Source: Kiritimatiellia bacterium
GTDB taxonomy: Bacteria; Verrucomicrobiota; Kiritimatiellia; PWTM01
Reading direction: 5' to 3'
Length of the DNA: 42,538 nucleotides
Assembly (NCBI GenBank): GCA_026417735.1
Contig: JAOACR010000024.1
Span: forward strand, 1 to 42,538
Shown: positions 24,789-42,153 of the stretch, piece after piece
Layout of the letters: the number at the start of each line of letters is the position of its first letter
Numbering within the stretch: the first letter of the stretch is position 1
Translations under genes and position numbers: made by a program
Notes under the pieces: generated by a model
Databases searched by the model: none
What the model saw: the letters and a program-made list of their open reading frames with translations, nothing else
What the model was told of the DNA's origin: nothing

Positions 24789-27700
24789 TCAACGGGCGGC
24801 AACGGAGGGGGGACGGCCCGCGGAAACGACGCGGAACCCCACGTTGAATAGACGTCGCCAAGGGGGATAGGCTGTGCGGATTGTCGGGCGGCACAGCGGG
24901 GGCGGATCAAAGAACGAGCCGCCCCTGACCACTCGTTCACCGTCCGGCAGGTCGTCGTTGCGGCCGTCGTGCTCGGCATAGGGATAGGGAGCGTAACGGC
25001 TCCGCGTCCACTCCGCGACGTTGCCGATGAGGTCGCACAAACCCAAGGAGTCGGCCCCGAGGGTTCCGACTGGCGCCGTGACGATGTGGCCATCGTCGCC
25101 GACGGCCGGCACGCCGGTTTCGCCGTCCAGCAGCAGGTGTTCGATGCCGCCGGTGACGCGCGCGAGCAGCGCGGTGTTCGCAAGACCGAGGAACGTGGCA
25201 TCGGCGGCGTTCAACCGGCGGGACTGCAGATCCGGCACGCGCGGCCAGCCGGCGAGCCGTGCCGCGTACTCCCACTGCGCTTCGGTGGGAAGATCAAACG
25301 GTTCGCCGAGCAGCGCGGACAGGCGCCGGCAGAATTCGCGTGCCTGGTGCCAGGAGACGCGGACCACCGGCTGGGTTGGCCCGTCGAGCGGTAGACCGGG
25401 GTCGTCCGGCTCGCGATGTCGCTTTCCGTAACGGCCGCTCAGGTGGCCGGAGACCAGGCGTGCAAACTGTTCGTTCGAAATTTCACAGACGGACATCCAG
25501 AATCCCTCGACCTCAACCTGCGTTGCCGGCCGCTCGTCGTCGGCGCCGTCCGCATCGCCCATTTGAACGGTACCGCCCGGCACCCACACCAGCTGAAGGG
25601 ACAGGCCCTCGCCGAGCGAAATTGTTCGCTGGCGGGCGGTGACGCGGTCGGTTTCGCATTGCCGGGGCCGGGGCGGCGGCAGGGGCGGAGCTGGAGGTCG
25701 CGTGGGCGGCGGCGACGGTGGCGTGAAGTCGGGCGGCGGCCGGTAGCGGGGGGTCTCCGGTACCGCCTCAGGGTCGTCGCGGGGCCCACCGGTGATCCGC
25801 CACAGCGCCAACCGACGCGCCGGCATGCCCTCCGGCACCGGGACCACCTCGCCCCACGTGCCGTGGTAGGGCGCGTTCAGGTCAATCCAAGTGACCAGCC
25901 GATCCCAAGCTTCCGCATCCAAGTGTACGCCGTGGTGGCCGCGTCGCAGCATCTGAACGAGCGGGGAGGTGTCGACGTGGTATTCGCCCGGTACAAGTCG
26001 GTCGACCACGTCCTCGATGCCGACCCGGCGGATTCGGGAGACCAGGGCCTCGTAGGCAGGTGAAAAGCGGACCCGGTCGCCCAGCGCCGCGCGCACCGCC
26101 GGGTGCATGCGCTGCAGGGTGAGTTTTGAGGGCGTTACGCCGACGTAGCCGGGAACGGCTTCGGCGGGCCGCAGATCCGGCCGGCCGGGGACGGTGCCGT
26201 CGTGACACGGACGGCAGTGGTGATCGAGCACCGGCTGAACTTCGCGGTGAAACGCGAAGCCGCGGGGCGGTCCCCGCCATGGTTCAAGGTCGCGCGGCGG
26301 GCGTGCGAGCGCGGCAGTGGGGCGTGCCGGCGCGGCTTGGGGTGTCGTCTCGTGGCAACCCACGCACGAGACGTATTCGCCGGGCATCGCGGTCGTCCAG
26401 CTCCGCATGAGTTGCACGGCGGCGCCATGCTCGTCGAGAGTCTGGAACGCGATCGGCGTGCGAGCCGGGACGCGGAACAGCGCGGAGCCGTCCTCTTCGA
26501 TCGGCACCGTTCCGATAATCCGCAGCGGCTCCCACGGACCGTTCAGCCCGATGTAATCAGGGCCGGCAAGGTTGAGGTAGCCGTAGTGATAGGCAATCAC
26601 CCGGAGCCTGCGGACGGTACCCCGCGGCACGCCTTCAAGCCCCGGCCCCTGGTAAACGTCGTGGATGTAGACGAGCGCGTCGTCGCGCGAGGGATCGGTT
26701 CGGTCCGGCAGTGCGGGCGGCCGCGGGCGTGGCGCCAGCGGCATCGGCTCGATCAGCGCGTAGCCGGGCAGCTCGAAGACCGGCGCAAGATTGTCGAACG
26801 TGTCCGCCACCGCAAGGCACCACGACGAGGTCGGCGACGCCTTCATCGAGACCAGCAGTGTGGTGTCGTCGATCGGATAGGGCGTGAGGAACAGCGGCCA
26901 TTCGTTCTGAACCAGCTGGTCGGCGATTCGCCGCTCCCGCGGCCGGCCATCGCCCGTGATCTCGAAGATACCGGCGCCTTCGCCGGCACCGAGCCGGGTA
27001 TCCACGACGACCAGCCGGCCGCAGCGATGGGGGCCGTGGTAGCCGGACAGAATCGCGACAAGCCGGCCGGGACGCCCCGGCAGTTCGCGGGGAAAGTACA
27101 GCGCGTTCGGGTACCACGAGTTGCTGCCGTAGATCGCGCGCTGACCGGTGCCGTCCGGATTCATCACCATCAGCAGCCGCAGGTAAATATGGCTGATGCC
27201 AGCATACTCCCAGCGGCTGTACACGATCTGGCCGTTGGAGAGCACCGCGGGGTGCAGGTTGTGATCCTGATCAAAGCAGAGCTGACGCCAGCTCCGCCCG
27301 TCGGGTTCCAACCGGTAGAGGTTCGCGACCTTTTTCTGGCCGTGCCAGCAGGGAACAGACTGGAATGTTGCCGTCGCGCCGAACACCAGGCCGCCATCGG
27401 GGAGCCACGCCGCATCAAAGACGTCGACGTCGTCCGGAAACTCGCCGATCACTCGAACTTCGCGGCCGTCCGGCGTCATCGTGCAGAGCCGCCACGCATG
27501 CGGGAATGACCGCGTGAACACGAGGCGCTGTGCGTCCCAGTCGAGGTCAAACTCGCCCACGTAGCCGCCGTCGGAGGGCTCAAAGATCGTCGTCCAACGG
27601 AAACCGTCAGCGTCGCGGTCCAAGCGACCGATCGCGTTGTCGTGTCCGTCGCGCTCGATCGAGCTGTTGCACTCGTGGTTGGAGGGCAGCGCAATTTCGC

Positions 27701-28121
27701 GACCGGGGTCGCGGCTGATCGAGAGCCGCGGGTTGGCGCCCACGCGCCGGCGTACCGCAACCGGGTTGTGCGGCCGGCGACGGACCACCAACAGCGGCGT
27801 GTTGCGCAGCCGAGGGTGATCGAGCATCACGGCCCGGCGAAACTCCTGCAAGCGGCTTGCAAGGTCCTCGGCCACCTCGGGCGCGGTCGCCACATCGAGG
27901 TCGCGTCGGAGTGCGGCCAACCGCTCCAGGTGCGTTTCTGCCCGCGCGGCCGAACCGTAGCGCGCCGCTCGGTCGCGCAGCGTCCGCTCAAGGGCCGGCA
28001 GACGGTGCTGCCGCCACAGCTCAAGCTCGTCTGGGGATGATCGCGGAGCCGGCAGTTCCGCTCCTACAAGCCCCGCCAGCGTGACACTCCAGCCGGTCGC
28101 AATTGCGAGGGCCTGGTGCAT
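24789..28121 (-). CDS. HzsA-like dihaem protein fused to a formylglycine-enzyme-like (SUMF1) domain
   Basis: A 1110-residue exported protein. A signal peptide (about 1-22, HQALAIATGWSVTLAGLVGA) leads into a helical segment (about 25-105). A beta-propeller-like region follows (about 110-500), with repeated blades such as LHPAVLSNGQIVYSRWEYAG. The next region holds two c-type haem sites, Cys586-Val-Gly-Cys589-His590 and Cys636-Arg-Pro-Cys639-His640. This order resembles the alpha subunit of hydrazine synthase. After a Pro-rich linker (about 790-820) comes a SUMF1/FGE-type domain (about 835-1105, with PGGTVQMGD, LPTEAQWEYAARLAG, NVAEWT and VVRGGSFF). Only one of the two FGE cysteines is visible (PLCRP). 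A periplasmic redox or binding role is likely; the reaction is unknown. No hydrazine synthase partner subunits are present. Confidence 0.75.
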   Translation of the reverse strand: MHQALAIATGWSVTLAGLVGAELPAPRSSPDELELWRQHRLPALERTLRDRAARYGSAARAETHLERLAALRRDLDVATAPEVAEDLASRLQEFRRAVMLDHPRLRNTPLLVVRRRPHNPVAVRRRVGANPRLSISRDPGREIALPSNHECNSSIERDGHDNAIGRLDRDADGFRWTTIFEPSDGGYVGEFDLDWDAQRLVFTRSFPHAWRLCTMTPDGREVRVIGEFPDDVDVFDAAWLPDGGLVFGATATFQSVPCWHGQKKVANLYRLEPDGRSWRQLCFDQDHNLHPAVLSNGQIVYSRWEYAGISHIYLRLLMVMNPDGTGQRAIYGSNSWYPNALYFPRELPGRPGRLVAILSGYHGPHRCGRLVVVDTRLGAGEGAGIFEITGDGRPRERRIADQLVQNEWPLFLTPYPIDDTTLLVSMKASPTSSWCLAVADTFDNLAPVFELPGYALIEPMPLAPRPRPPALPDRTDPSRDDALVYIHDVYQGPGLEGVPRGTVRRLRVIAYHYGYLNLAGPDYIGLNGPWEPLRIIGTVPIEEDGSALFRVPARTPIAFQTLDEHGAAVQLMRSWTTAMPGEYVSCVGCHETTPQAAPARPTAALARPPRDLEPWRGPPRGFAFHREVQPVLDHHCRPCHDGTVPGRPDLRPAEAVPGYVGVTPSKLTLQRMHPAVRAALGDRVRFSPAYEALVSRIRRVGIEDVVDRLVPGEYHVDTSPLVQMLRRGHHGVHLDAEAWDRLVTWIDLNAPYHGTWGEVVPVPEGMPARRLALWRITGGPRDDPEAVPETPRYRPPPDFTPPSPPPTRPPAPPLPPPRPRQCETDRVTARQRTISLGEGLSLQLVWVPGGTVQMGDADGADDERPATQVEVEGFWMSVCEISNEQFARLVSGHLSGRYGKRHREPDDPGLPLDGPTQPVVRVSWHQAREFCRRLSALLGEPFDLPTEAQWEYAARLAGWPRVPDLQSRRLNAADATFLGLANTALLARVTGGIEHLLLDGETGVPAVGDDGHIVTAPVGTLGADSLGLCDLIGNVAEWTRSRYAPYPYAEHDGRNDDLPDGERVVRGGSFFDPPPLCRPTIRTAYPPWRRLFNVGFRVVSAGRPPSVAAR

Positions 28122-32365: not shown

Positions 32366-32402
32366 GGCGGGCGGGGCCGGAGGGCTCCGCCCGCCGACGT
32401 TT
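32366..32402 (+). terminator. Probable terminator after the second Gfo/Idh/MocA gene
   Basis: GGCGGGCGG (32366-32374) and CCGCCCGCC (32387-32395) form a perfect nine-base GC stem around a 12-base loop, followed by GACGTTTG. The T run is short, but the stem is strong and lies 24 bases after the stop codon. Confidence 0.5.
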
Positions 32403-32433
32403 GCGGGCTCCATCGCGGCGGGCGATTGACACG

Positions 32434-33666
32434 ATGCGGTCGGTGGCATCGAGGGCCGTCGTGAGTGCGCCATGGCGTTTGATGGCCAAACCCGTCGGGC
32501 CGCAATGCAATTTGGCGTGCCGTTTTCGATCTGGCGAAGCGGCGCGGTCTGCCCGCCGATGTGCCCTCACGGATGCGGACGTGTTGCTGGCGGCGTATGT
32601 GCGCCGCGTGGCGGAAGCGGCCGGCGGACCGCTGGTACTCGCCTGTCAGGGAGGCGAACCGACACTGGCAGGCCTTTCGTTCTACCGGCGTGCGGTTGCG
32701 ATCGCGTGCAAGGTCGCCTCCGGCCGCGAGCTGCGGCTCTCGCTTCCGACCAATGGCCTGCTGCTCGCTGACGACTGGTGCGGCTTTCTCGCGGAACACC
32801 GCGTGCTGGTCGGTCTCAGTCTCGACGGTCCGTCGTCGGCGCATCACGCGTTCCGCCGCCGGTGAAACGGTGCCGCGACGCACGAGGCGGTTGTGGCGGC
32901 ACTGCGTCGCCTTCCCCGCCACGGCGTGGGGTTCAACGTGCTGGCGGCGGTGCACACGGTCAACGCCAGTCGGCCGCTCGAGGTCGAGCGCCACCTGCGG
33001 GATCTGGGCGTCCGTTACATTCGATTCATTCCGATCATCGAACGCGTTCCGGATGCGGCTCAGTACTCCACCGGCCTGGATACGGGCCGCGCGGGGCCCG
33101 CACCGCGCCGGACGAGATGGAGCGTGGCGCCCGCGGAGTACGGCAGGTTTCTGATCGCCGTGTTCGAGGAGGGGCGCCAGCGCGACCGTGAGCGCCTGAC
33201 GCTCCAGATCATCGAGTCCGCCATTGCGGCCCGCCTCGGCGCCGGCGCAACCGTGTGCCAGTTCGCACCAGAGTGCGGCCGCTGCCTAGTGGTGGAGACG
33301 AACGGCGATGTGTACGCATGTGATCGCGACGTTCAACCGTACCACCACCGCAGCAACCTGCTGGACAGCCCGCTGGCCGACATCCTGGATTCACCGGCCC
33401 CGGTGCGCTTCGGGCGGGACAAGGCGGATCGGCTGTCGTGGACCTGCCGGACCTGCGCAGTGCTCTCCCTGTGTGGCGGCGACTGCCCCAAGCACCGCTG
33501 GCTCGCCGATGCCGACGACCCGCATCGTCCCCGCAGCGTGCGATGCGAGGCGTACCGGCGTTTTTTCAATCACTCGTGGGCGACGATCGAGGAGAGCGTG
33601 CTTGCGCTGATCTGCGGGACCGCCCCGAATGCGGAAGGGGCGGGGCACGACAATCCGGTACTGTGA
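32434..33666 (+). pseudogene. Broken anaerobic sulfatase-maturating enzyme (radical SAM/SPASM)
   Basis: Homologue of anSME, which turns the active-site Cys or Ser of sulfatases into formylglycine. Family blocks are clear: LMAKPVGPQCNLAC, ACQGGEPTLAGLSFY, LPTNGLLLADDWCGF and VGLSLDGPSSAHHAFR. The C-terminal half has RFIPIIERVP, CQFAPECGRCLVVETNGDVYACD and the SPASM cysteines CRTCAVLSLCGGDCPKHRW. Two lesions are visible. A TGA at 32863-32865 interrupts the frame in the middle. Between about 32524 and 32575 the family-like residues (FDLAKRRGLPADVPSRM) are in the +1 frame, so the third cluster cysteine of CxxxCxxC is missing. The open frame continues without further stops. Either a decaying gene or assembly errors explain this. 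Confidence 0.75.
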
Positions 33667-33753: not shown

Positions 33754-34167
33754 TCACCGCCGGCCGATACAACGCTCCAACAGCGCAGTTGCAAATCGCG
33801 CCGCCTCCAGCGACTGATCCGCGTCCGCCGCGGTGTACAGAGAGGTGGGGATCAGGTCCGCCTCCCCGTAAAAACTGAACTCCCGCTCCCTGCGCAGGCG
33901 ACGAGAGTCAGCGGCCAGCCGTTCCAGCTCTTCGCGTGACAGCGCCGGACATCGGTCGGCGTATTCCAACAGCAGTTCGCCGACGTCGTGAATCTTGGGC
34001 GGGTCGATCCCGATCGAGCGCAGAATCCCTTTCGCGGCCAGCTCCACAACCTCTTGACTTTCGCGAACGACGTCCGAGTGCGCCTCGCGTGCGCGCAACA
34101 CCTCAAGTGCGGCCAGACGGTCCCCACATTTCCGCAGATAGCTCCGGGCCAGCTGGTCGGAAGTCAT
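33754..34167 (-). CDS. HEPN-domain protein (putative toxin of a MntA/HepT-like pair)
   Basis: A 137-residue all-helical HEPN protein (PF05168 type), with ESQEVVELAAKGILRSIGIDPPKIHDVGELL as the central helices. Toxic HEPN proteins carry R-x4-H-x-Y; here the corresponding stretch RREREFSFYGEAD reads R-x4-S-x-Y, with the tyrosine kept and the histidine replaced. It starts with ATG 34167 overlapping the nucleotidyltransferase stop (ATGA). In characterised pairs the transferase adenylates the HEPN tyrosine to silence it. Whether this HEPN still cleaves RNA is uncertain. Confidence 0.8.
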   Translation of the reverse strand: MTSDQLARSYLRKCGDRLAALEVLRAREAHSDVVRESQEVVELAAKGILRSIGIDPPKIHDVGELLLEYADRCPALSREELERLAADSRRLRREREFSFYGEADLIPTSLYTAADADQSLEAARFATALLERCIGRR

Positions 34168-40112: not shown

Positions 40113-40850
40113 ATGAGCACCTGGTCCAGGTCGATGGTGACCGCGGTAATGGCGCTGGGCACGGCGTTGGCGGCGGCCGAACCGCCGGAGGGGTTCCGGG
40201 CACTGTTCAACGGTCGTGATTTCACCGGTTGGATCCTACCGGAGGGGGACCAGGGCCACTGGAGGGTCGAGGGCGGAGTGATTGACTACGACGCGCGCAG
40301 TGAGGCCCAGGGAGATAAGAACCTCTGGACGGAGCAGGAGTTTGGTGATTTTACGCTGATCGTCGAGTGGCGGATCAAGGAAACCCCTTACCTAAATCCG
40401 CGGGTCGCCTATGTGCTGCCCGATGGGACGCACGCGCGCGATGTGCGCGGGCAACCTCTCCGGCTCACTCTGCCGGACTCCGATTCCGGCATCTACCTGC
40501 GCGGGTCGCCCAAGCATCAGGTCAACATCTGGTGCTGGCCGATCGGTTCGGGCGAAATGTACGGTGTGCGGATGGATCCGAAGATGCCGCCGGCGGTGCG
40601 CGCCGCTGTCACGCCGCGCACGCAGGCCGACCGGCCGGTTGGGGAGTGGAACCGATTCGAGATCACCGTTCGCGGGCGGACCGTGTCGGTAAAACTGAAC
40701 GAGGTGCTGGTGATTCCGGCTGTCGAGATCCCCGATCTTCCCGAGCGCGGGCGCATTGCGCTGCAGCATCACGGGAACCTGGTGAACGGCGAATGGACGA
40801 GCCCGCCGAGCCTCGTTCAGTTCCGCAACATCTGGATCCGGGAATACTGA
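40113..40850 (+). CDS. Exported DUF1080 protein (3-keto-disaccharide hydrolase family)
   Basis: A 245-residue exported protein. Residues 1-22 are a signal peptide. The jelly-roll domain (PF06439) begins with GFRALFNGRDFTGWILPEG and has WTEQEFGDFTLIVEWRIK, SDSGIYLRGSPKHQVNIW and PVGEWNRFEITVRG, ending in IALQHHGNLVNGEW and FRNIWIREY. Family members hydrolyse 3-keto-disaccharides or bind glycans. In PVC genomes they often accompany Gfo/Idh/MocA oxidoreductases, which make keto-sugars, so the two copies in this window are plausible partners. AAAGGAG lies about 10 bases before the ATG. Confidence 0.88.
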   Translation: MSTWSRSMVTAVMALGTALAAAEPPEGFRALFNGRDFTGWILPEGDQGHWRVEGGVIDYDARSEAQGDKNLWTEQEFGDFTLIVEWRIKETPYLNPRVAYVLPDGTHARDVRGQPLRLTLPDSDSGIYLRGSPKHQVNIWCWPIGSGEMYGVRMDPKMPPAVRAAVTPRTQADRPVGEWNRFEITVRGRTVSVKLNEVLVIPAVEIPDLPERGRIALQHHGNLVNGEWTSPPSLVQFRNIWIREY

Positions 40851-40899: not shown

Positions 40900-42153
40900 T
40901 CAACGTTCAGGGGGTTGGGGTGGGCGCACGACGTGGCCCCAGAACAGCGTGGCGCCAGTTCGACGGTCGAGAATCACAAACAGGAAAGGCCGGTCAGCGC
41001 GGAACACGACGGGCGATTCTTCAACCGGTGCTGCAACGGCTTTCACCACTACCGCGGTTGCCGCGGCGGCCTCGGTGCCCTTCTCCTGAACCTCGACGAA
41101 CGCTTTGTGCAGGACCGCACTGACGTAGAGCTCCCGCCGGCCACTCATGCGGGAAAGATCCGCGCGGTTCGGATCGAACGCCTCCCCCATCCCCATCCGG
41201 CCGAACGCGGCGTCCAGCCGCGCTTCAGACTCGATGCGAAACCGCGGCAGATACACCTGCACCGTGCGCGGACGCAGTGCGCGACGCCATCCCGACAGCG
41301 CGCTGCCCGTCAGCCGGGGGGCGAGCGTTCCCCACTGTCCGGGCGACGGTAGCACAAGGAGCATCGCGACGTCCGCGCCCCGATAAGCCAGCTCGCAGAT
41401 TTGCGCTCCGTCCGCTTCCGCATAGCGGACCGCCGGAAACTCCAGCTCGCGGTACATCAACTCGACTTCGCCCGATGGAACCCCCATCGCGTCATGAAAT
41501 GGTGCCCGTTGGGTGTCACGCGGCGAAAACGCCTGAAGCCAGGGGCCCAGGAAATACACTGCGTTCACCAACACCAGCCGCGTGCTCGAGTTGAGCAGAC
41601 CAGGCGGGACCAGCTCGCGAATCCGCCGACGGGTACGCTCTTCTACCCACTTGTTGATCTCCCGGCGAACGCCCTCCGCGTTGTTCACGAAATCCGCGAG
41701 GGCAGGTGTCGCCTCAAACACCGACTCAACCGAGCGAACAAAGTCCGGGAGCAGCCCGTAGTCGCGCTGGCTCCAGAATCGACAGGCCGATTCGAGGGTG
41801 ACATCACGCTGGCCGCTGAACGACGCAATGCGCCGCTGAACTGATCGCAGTCGCGCTGCCCGCTCCACGCGGTCGGATGCCAGACGCAGCCCTCGGACCA
41901 GCTCCGCTTCGGTGGTGGTATCGGCGCCCGCGGCGACCATCGCCATGGCGGTTCGTACGCTGAATGGTGAGACGATCAGATTCTTCTCGTCGCTCGCGAC
42001 CTCTCGGTACAGCGAGGCGGAAAACTCGTTAATCGCATCAACTTCCGCGGGCGAAGGCAATTCGTCCCCACTCTCCAGAGTGACGGCGCGGGACACCGGG
42101 GCAATCCCCGGCGCCATGATCGCAAACACGAAAAGCAGCGGAGCGATGTGCAT
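40900..42153 (-). CDS. Exported serpin (serine protease inhibitor)
   Basis: A 417-residue protein with a signal peptide (LLFVFAIMAPGIAPVSRA) and the full serpin fold: NLIVSPFSVRTAMAMVAAGA, VLVNAVYFLGPW, and the C-terminal shutter FRADRPFLFVILDRRTGATLFWG. The hinge of the reactive loop is EKGTEAAAATA, rich in small residues as in inhibitory serpins. Counting from the hinge as in alpha-1-antitrypsin puts Val-Ala at P1-P1', suggesting an elastase-like target. It probably protects cells against external proteases in the periplasm or outside. GGAGA precedes the ATG by about 9 bases. Confidence 0.92.
   Translation of the reverse strand: MHIAPLLFVFAIMAPGIAPVSRAVTLESGDELPSPAEVDAINEFSASLYREVASDEKNLIVSPFSVRTAMAMVAAGADTTTEAELVRGLRLASDRVERAARLRSVQRRIASFSGQRDVTLESACRFWSQRDYGLLPDFVRSVESVFEATPALADFVNNAEGVRREINKWVEERTRRRIRELVPPGLLNSSTRLVLVNAVYFLGPWLQAFSPRDTQRAPFHDAMGVPSGEVELMYRELEFPAVRYAEADGAQICELAYRGADVAMLLVLPSPGQWGTLAPRLTGSALSGWRRALRPRTVQVYLPRFRIESEARLDAAFGRMGMGEAFDPNRADLSRMSGRRELYVSAVLHKAFVEVQEKGTEAAAATAVVVKAVAAPVEESPVVFRADRPFLFVILDRRTGATLFWGHVVRPPQPPER

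Follow-up and report, generated by a model that had tools for sequence, protein, structure and literature searches.

A gene on the reverse strand of a 42,538-nucleotide stretch from a Kiritimatiellia bacterium (assembly GCA_026417735.1, contig JAOACR010000024.1; hereafter the window) encodes a 1110-residue protein in which a di-haem region folded like HzsA, the alpha subunit of hydrazine synthase (HZS), is joined to a domain with the fold of the formylglycine-generating enzyme (FGE). HZS has been labelled an 'evolutionary orphan'. We give an even chance to the reading that this fusion provides the alpha-like subunit of an HZS-like complex that is exported, includes a beta-gamma partner and oxidises, in the periplasm, an organic and probably carbohydrate-derived compound; the FGE-like domain would contribute to it in a non-catalytic way.

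The gene is a real open reading frame (ORF), 24789-28121 on the minus strand, with an ATG at 28121 and possible alternative GTG and TTG starts just upstream of it. A sequence-only reading of this DNA had described a propeller, two CxxCH motifs, a Pro-rich linker and an FGE fold, and this anatomy is recovered by Pfam, by the motifs and by modelling. Both HZS_alpha (PF18582, E 4e-28) and FGE-sulfatase (PF03781, E 5e-42) score above their gathering cut-offs, and the architecture is far beyond chance because many genomes encode co-linear homologues of full length. In a Foldseek search, an AlphaFold2 model of residues 95-765 (pLDDT 83, pTM 0.88), computed free of haem, matched HzsA (PDB 5c2v) best (E 2.5e-27, TM 0.67-0.69). 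Superposition on 5c2v_A with VIA-align (Z 33.5, rmsd 3.2, 561 residues) extends over the propeller, the middle domain and the C-terminal cytochrome region, which bears out the HzsA-like arrangement of propeller and haem domains that had been claimed; the next family in that search, TolB, covers the propeller only. In agreement, the family profile aligns with that of 20 genuine HzsA sequences at E 3.5e-30 across 506 columns (hhalign). The fusion thus matches HzsA over its whole length, sharing the propeller, the PF18582 middle domain, the two CxxCH motifs and the C-terminal cytochrome region, and differs from it by the additional FGE domain, by Pro594 in place of Tyr591 and by Cys258 in place of Asp204. 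Against the HzsA equivalog model NF052339 it scores only 38.2 bits, below the cut-off of 800.

These replacements are family-wide. Conservation was counted over 99 fused and 17 unfused homologues (97 for positions of the FGE domain), with HzsA residue numbering checked against Kuenenia. Both CxxCH motifs are present in 99/99 fused homologues; a lack of their conservation would have spoken against the sequence-only reading. The tyrosine four residues past the first CxxCH histidine (Tyr591 after His587 in HzsA, where it ligates haem alpha-I) occurs in all 20 genuine HzsA sequences and in 1 of the 99 fused proteins, so that its loss, already read from the single sequence, is a property of the family. 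The sole sampled fused protein with this tyrosine (CVGCHEKNY) is a 2025-residue member from Lentisphaerae (L115:2872-8946). At the second haem site, His729 is invariant (99/99) and His730 aligns with the HzsA distal ligand His772. Three propeller residues are conserved in the fused proteins without exception: Cys258, also invariant in the unfused homologues (17/17) and an aspartate in aligned HzsA; His311, not invariant in the unfused set; and His362, found in 14/17 unfused homologues. In the model three successive blades each contribute one of these residues, always between strands 2 and 3, at spacings of 53 and 51 residues; all three therefore share one face of the propeller, which would be the face turned towards haem 1. 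An identity of Cys258 with the HzsA zinc ligand Cys303 was rejected, since Cys303 aligns one blade later, beside Asn335, and Cys258 aligns with Asp204; Cys303, the zinc ligand in Kuenenia, varies even among HzsA sequences.

The second line of evidence is a partner gene that adjoins many of the fusion genes. Its product, of about 600-640 residues, carries two CxxCH motifs and combines a lactonase/YncE-type propeller with a CCP_MauG domain. A profile built from nine such sequences matches HzsB (5c2v_B, 1.5e-59, profile positions 23-380) and HzsC (5c2v_C, 9e-44, positions 398-614), both over their whole lengths; as a positive control, it was run on two anammox genomes and picked up the genuine HzsC and HzsB encoded next to hzsA. 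The partner is hence a fused beta-gamma homologue, in which the gamma-subunit Cys165/Asp168 (CGRD) loop and His144, numbered from the 5c2v_C alignment, are not conserved. Two such genes are encoded in the source genome (C3:37422-39224 and C18:121949-123412), the former 11 kb from a second copy of the fusion. Neither adjoins the fusion copy in the window, so the statement that beta and gamma subunits are absent holds for the window and fails for the genome. Given the two beta-gamma homologues, we read the fusion as a subunit of an HZS-like complex and not as an orphan haem protein.

Among 58 relatives, the partner was found in 12 of 13 fusion carriers and in 0 of 45 non-carriers (Fisher 1.5e-11, phylogenetically uncorrected), and it is also present in 5/5 Planctomycetota genomes checked. 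In G040 and G007 the beta-gamma gene is the immediate, co-directional neighbour of the fusion. In Phycisphaerales and relatives (G058, G059 and G061) the order fusion, unfused alpha, beta-gamma is conserved, which suggests that two different alpha subunits serve one beta-gamma partner. A gene resembling chorismatase FkbO/Hyg5 and RidA repeatedly stands beside beta-gamma (L206:1662-2384, L193:807-1529, L195:7226-7945).

The FGE part, modelled separately, adopts the SUMF1 fold, with 1y1e as top Foldseek match (E 7e-16). As stated from the single sequence, one of the two catalytic cysteines is kept (Cys1077) and the other is replaced (Asp1072). The lone cysteine is not a meaningful retention, since the position of SUMF1 Cys341 is a cysteine in only 32/97 homologues and that of Cys336 in none (0/97), being Asp in 81/97 and Gln, Asn, Thr, Ser or Leu among the remainder. 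The catalytic and copper-binding pair of SUMF1 (PDB 1y1e) is thus missing family-wide in a fold that is otherwise common to both, and, judged from these alignments, a copper-type formylglycine enzyme of the known kind is excluded for the whole family. Along with the fold, N971, D974, N1034 and E1037 are kept, probably at the SUMF1 calcium-site positions. The best PDB profile matches of the domain are PorK/GldK and PvdO, which likewise lack the Cys pair and, unlike the fusion, have no haem protein attached. The earlier expectation that neither parent activity persists in its known form is supported by the loss of Tyr591 on one side and of the Cys pair on the other. The third FGE-domain protein of the genome (G000:C9:341102-341734, L117) is short and standalone, and it too is without the Cys336/Cys341 pair.

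The fusion occurs in several families of the same class, as found in the 58 relatives, and a scan of 84,980 species genomes returned at least 557 related loci; the best 80, which were kept, come from Planctomycetota, Verrucomicrobiota, Lentisphaerota, Hydrogenedentota, Sumerlaeota and others, mostly as metagenome-assembled genomes. An FGE domain is attached in 102 of 124 full-length HZS-region ORFs from the collected loci, a sample drawn by similarity to fused proteins in which unfused members are under-represented. Phylogenies built on the HZS region group the fused proteins, which come from Planctomycetota, Verrucomicrobiota, Lentisphaerota and Hydrogenedentota, in a single clade (SH-aLRT 100; bootstrap/SH-aLRT 100/100 in a second tree) that excludes the unfused homologues and HzsA. 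On this phylogeny, a check that the sequence-only reading had named, the fusion has a single origin. The source genome holds five PF18582 genes, two of them fusions, and some family members carry N-terminal CBM6, NPCBM or F5/8C modules. Four further full-length copies lie on Bacteroidota plasmid records (L202, NZ_OY725748.1; L203; L204; L205) from human-gut Bacteroidales and a marine member of Cytophagales, and the plasmid homologues of Parabacteroides distasonis, Phocaeicola massiliensis and Aureibacter tunicatorum are full-length with 33-37% identity. The P. distasonis protein WP_228002637.1 is co-linear over its full length (34% identity over 91%) and, unlike the window fusion, has an N-terminal NPCBM module. 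In a genome of the same genus, the fusion gene (G002:C91:17111-20285) is split across frames by TGA and TAG stops and may be decaying or misassembled.

Clues to the substrate come from gene neighbourhoods. In P. distasonis the operon reads IclR, beta-gamma (WP_009275029.1), a chorismatase/RidA-like protein, a lyxose/mannose-isomerase-like lipoprotein, the fusion and CcsA/ResB, followed by a small protein, DhaK, DhaL, LsrF aldolase, WD40, MFS and GH130. It largely recurs in Hydrogenedentes (L112) and Phycisphaerae (L078, which stems from the genomes of the PMC10732223 study according to its record title); L070 and the Aureibacter plasmids have part of it, and on pAT2 of Aureibacter the fusion lies with the beta-gamma gene. 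On contig C3 of the source genome a chorismatase-like gene follows beta-gamma, and in other lineages the fusion adjoins genes of glycoside hydrolase families GH95, GH127 and GH2. The sugar isomerase, DhaK-DhaL, LsrF and CcsA neighbours suggest oxidation of a carbohydrate-derived substrate; the glycoside hydrolase neighbours and the CBM modules hint the same way. We count the CcsA-type haem maturation gene in favour of a haem-dependent complex.

Based on these observations, we propose a scheme in which four things are what we infer from homology and context: what the substrate is, which way electrons flow, which ligands haem 1 has and what the FGE-like domain does. Haem 1 would be held by the canonical His590 against the propeller face that bears Cys258, His311 and His362; with such surroundings, its chemistry would differ from hydrazine synthesis. 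Haem 2 would be bound by His640 and either His729 or His730 and would relay electrons. Together, the alpha and beta-gamma subunits would form a tetrahaem complex that oxidises an organic, probably carbohydrate-derived, compound in the periplasm. As in PorK/GldK, the FGE-like domain would be a module for binding or docking and would take no part in catalysis.

Several observations weigh against this scheme. One fusion carrier, G031, is without the partner, and the co-occurrence counts are phylogenetically non-independent. The immediate neighbours are mostly heterogeneous across loci: among 68 co-directional neighbours, few repeats were found besides HZS_alpha paralogues and beta-gamma, so that no uniform functional neighbourhood emerged. 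LsrF is absent from the source genome and its genus, for which reason its pathway was rejected as a universal context; as, in addition, the window copy adjoins the housekeeping genes trmFO and UDG, the catabolic gene context is lineage-specific.

Among the alternatives, an unlikely one that nonetheless fares best is that the protein is a structural or electron-transfer surface component, with propeller, haems and FGE-like domain acting as a scaffold or wire that has no catalytic site of its own. The N-terminal CBM6, NPCBM or F5/8C modules of some members and the use of the FGE fold as a scaffold in PorK would suit such a role, which is harder to reconcile with Cys and His residues strictly conserved on a single propeller face and with a MauG-like partner, both of which look catalytic. 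Rather improbable, in our estimate, is an active FGE-like domain of a non-copper, PvdO-like type, in which an acidic residue replaces Cys336, the haems act as electron acceptor and a peptide or small molecule is bound in the cleft. The aspartate prevalent at the Cys336 position aligns with a glutamate in PvdO, and TM-scores of 0.69-0.73 rank PvdO structures among the closest. PvdO itself, a periplasmic oxidation factor in which no cofactor has been detected, may depend on a partner for electron transport (PMC6206403). The Cys336 position, however, also accommodates Gln, Asn, Thr, Ser and Leu, and the domain yielded no conserved set of metal-binding residues. The FGE fold is also commonly put to non-catalytic use, as PorK/GldK and SUMF2 illustrate.

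We consider it very unlikely that the complex is a divergent hydrazine synthase or another N-N bond-forming enzyme handling nitrogen oxides and ammonium. In its favour, the alpha and beta-gamma subunits are both homologous to those of HZS and between them have all four haem motifs, and hzs-like genes of Phycisphaerae were proposed in 2023 as possible anammox genes (PMC10732223). Nevertheless, Tyr591 is lost in 98/99 fused proteins, the partner has no conserved gamma Cys165/Asp168 loop or His144, the NF052339 score is 38 against a cut-off of 800, fermentative gut Bacteroidales, whose operon contains sugar genes, are among the hosts, and the same negative conclusion was reached for other HZS-like clades (PMC12758564).

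Least credible of all is that the fusion matures sulfatases, its exported FGE-like domain using haem in place of copper to oxidise the cysteine of the sulfatase: the genome has about 40 sulfatase genes (42 PF00884 matches, 23/23 readable ones Cys-type), a search of it found neither an intact anSME nor an FGE that has the catalytic Cys pair, and yet we rejected a maturase role on the missing pair (Cys336 position 0/97 Cys), while close fusion-carrying relatives retain intact anSME genes and sulfatases are rarely near family members (1/68 neighbours). The only anSME-type gene of the genome (TIGR03942) lies in the window at 32401-33666 (+) and is broken, with the third radical-SAM cysteine missing and an in-frame TGA at 32863; the copy of the sister species G001 is intact, and that of the same-genus G002 has stops inside it.

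Table 1. Features of the fusion gene, in window coordinates.
Feature	Position	Strand	Basis
CDS, HzsA-like di-haem / FGE-like fusion protein, 1110 aa	24789..28121	-	ORF, Pfam, full-length homologues
Probable signal peptide, ~aa 1-22 (MHQALAIATGWSVTLAGLVGA), hydrophobic	28056..28121	-	read by eye from sequence
Beta-propeller, ~aa 162-461, like HzsA and TolB propellers	26739..27638	-	AlphaFold2 strands, Foldseek, VIA-align
Cys258	27348..27350	-	conservation count over homologues
His311	27189..27191	-	conservation count over homologues
His362	27036..27038	-	conservation count and model strands
HZS_alpha middle domain PF18582, aa 501-591	26349..26621	-	Pfam
Haem motif 1, CVGCH 586-590, equivalent to HzsA haem alpha-I; Pro594 replaces Tyr591	26352..26366	-	
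Haem motif 2, CRPCH 636-640, equivalent to HzsA haem alpha-II	26202..26216	-	
His729-His730, position of HzsA distal ligand His772	25932..25937	-	alignment
Pro-rich linker, ~aa 795-821	25659..25739	-	read from sequence
FGE/SUMF1-like domain PF03781, aa 843-1099	24825..25595	-	Pfam, structural match
Asp1072, replaces SUMF1 Cys336	24906..24908	-	alignment
Cys1077, at SUMF1 Cys341 position	24891..24893	-	alignment

Elsewhere in the window are a protein with a 3-keto-disaccharide hydrolase domain (40113-40850, +), a full-length serpin (40900-42153, -; E 4e-101) and a HEPN-domain protein (33754-34167, -). An Rfam scan of the window gave no matches.

HZS-like homologues have already been published. 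Alpha and beta-gamma homologues outside anammox were described in 2025 as four clades that are without the Tyr591 and Cys303 ligands and were judged unable to make hydrazine (PMC12758564). Clades I-IV share with the fusion PF18582, the haem sites, the loss of Tyr591 and the linkage to a fused beta-gamma gene; His772 is reported missing in clade I, whereas the fusion family has a histidine aligned there. The text of that study mentions no FGE, SUMF or sulfatase domain. For the hzs-like genes of Phycisphaerae, a broader family with other substrates had been suggested (PMC10732223, 2023). In the open-access literature searched we found no description of a link between FGE and hydrazine synthase, an absence that is not proof, and the FGE fusion with its gene clusters appears to be an undescribed variant.

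The fusions make up a large family of single origin that keeps the HZS subunit plan with both haem sites changed. Their annotation can be corrected: RefSeq names WP_228002637.1 a 'SUMF1/EgtB/PvdO family nonheme iron enzyme', which overlooks its two haem sites, whereas every sampled protein has two haem-c motifs. The genes also occur in cultivable gut Bacteroidales, beside sugar-pathway genes, so that genetically tractable organisms are available in which the ancestral function of this architecture can be tested. More tentatively, the alpha(FGE)/beta-gamma tetrahaem complex with its putative Cys-His-His haem 1 site might carry out an undescribed periplasmic oxidation that feeds a sugar pathway of the DhaKL-LsrF type, and HZS might be a specialised branch of an older family of oxidoreductases acting on organic substrates. 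If so, this would be a second widespread use of the HZS architecture in the Planctomycetes-Verrucomicrobia-Chlamydiae group, Hydrogenedentota and Bacteroidota, species of the human gut included.

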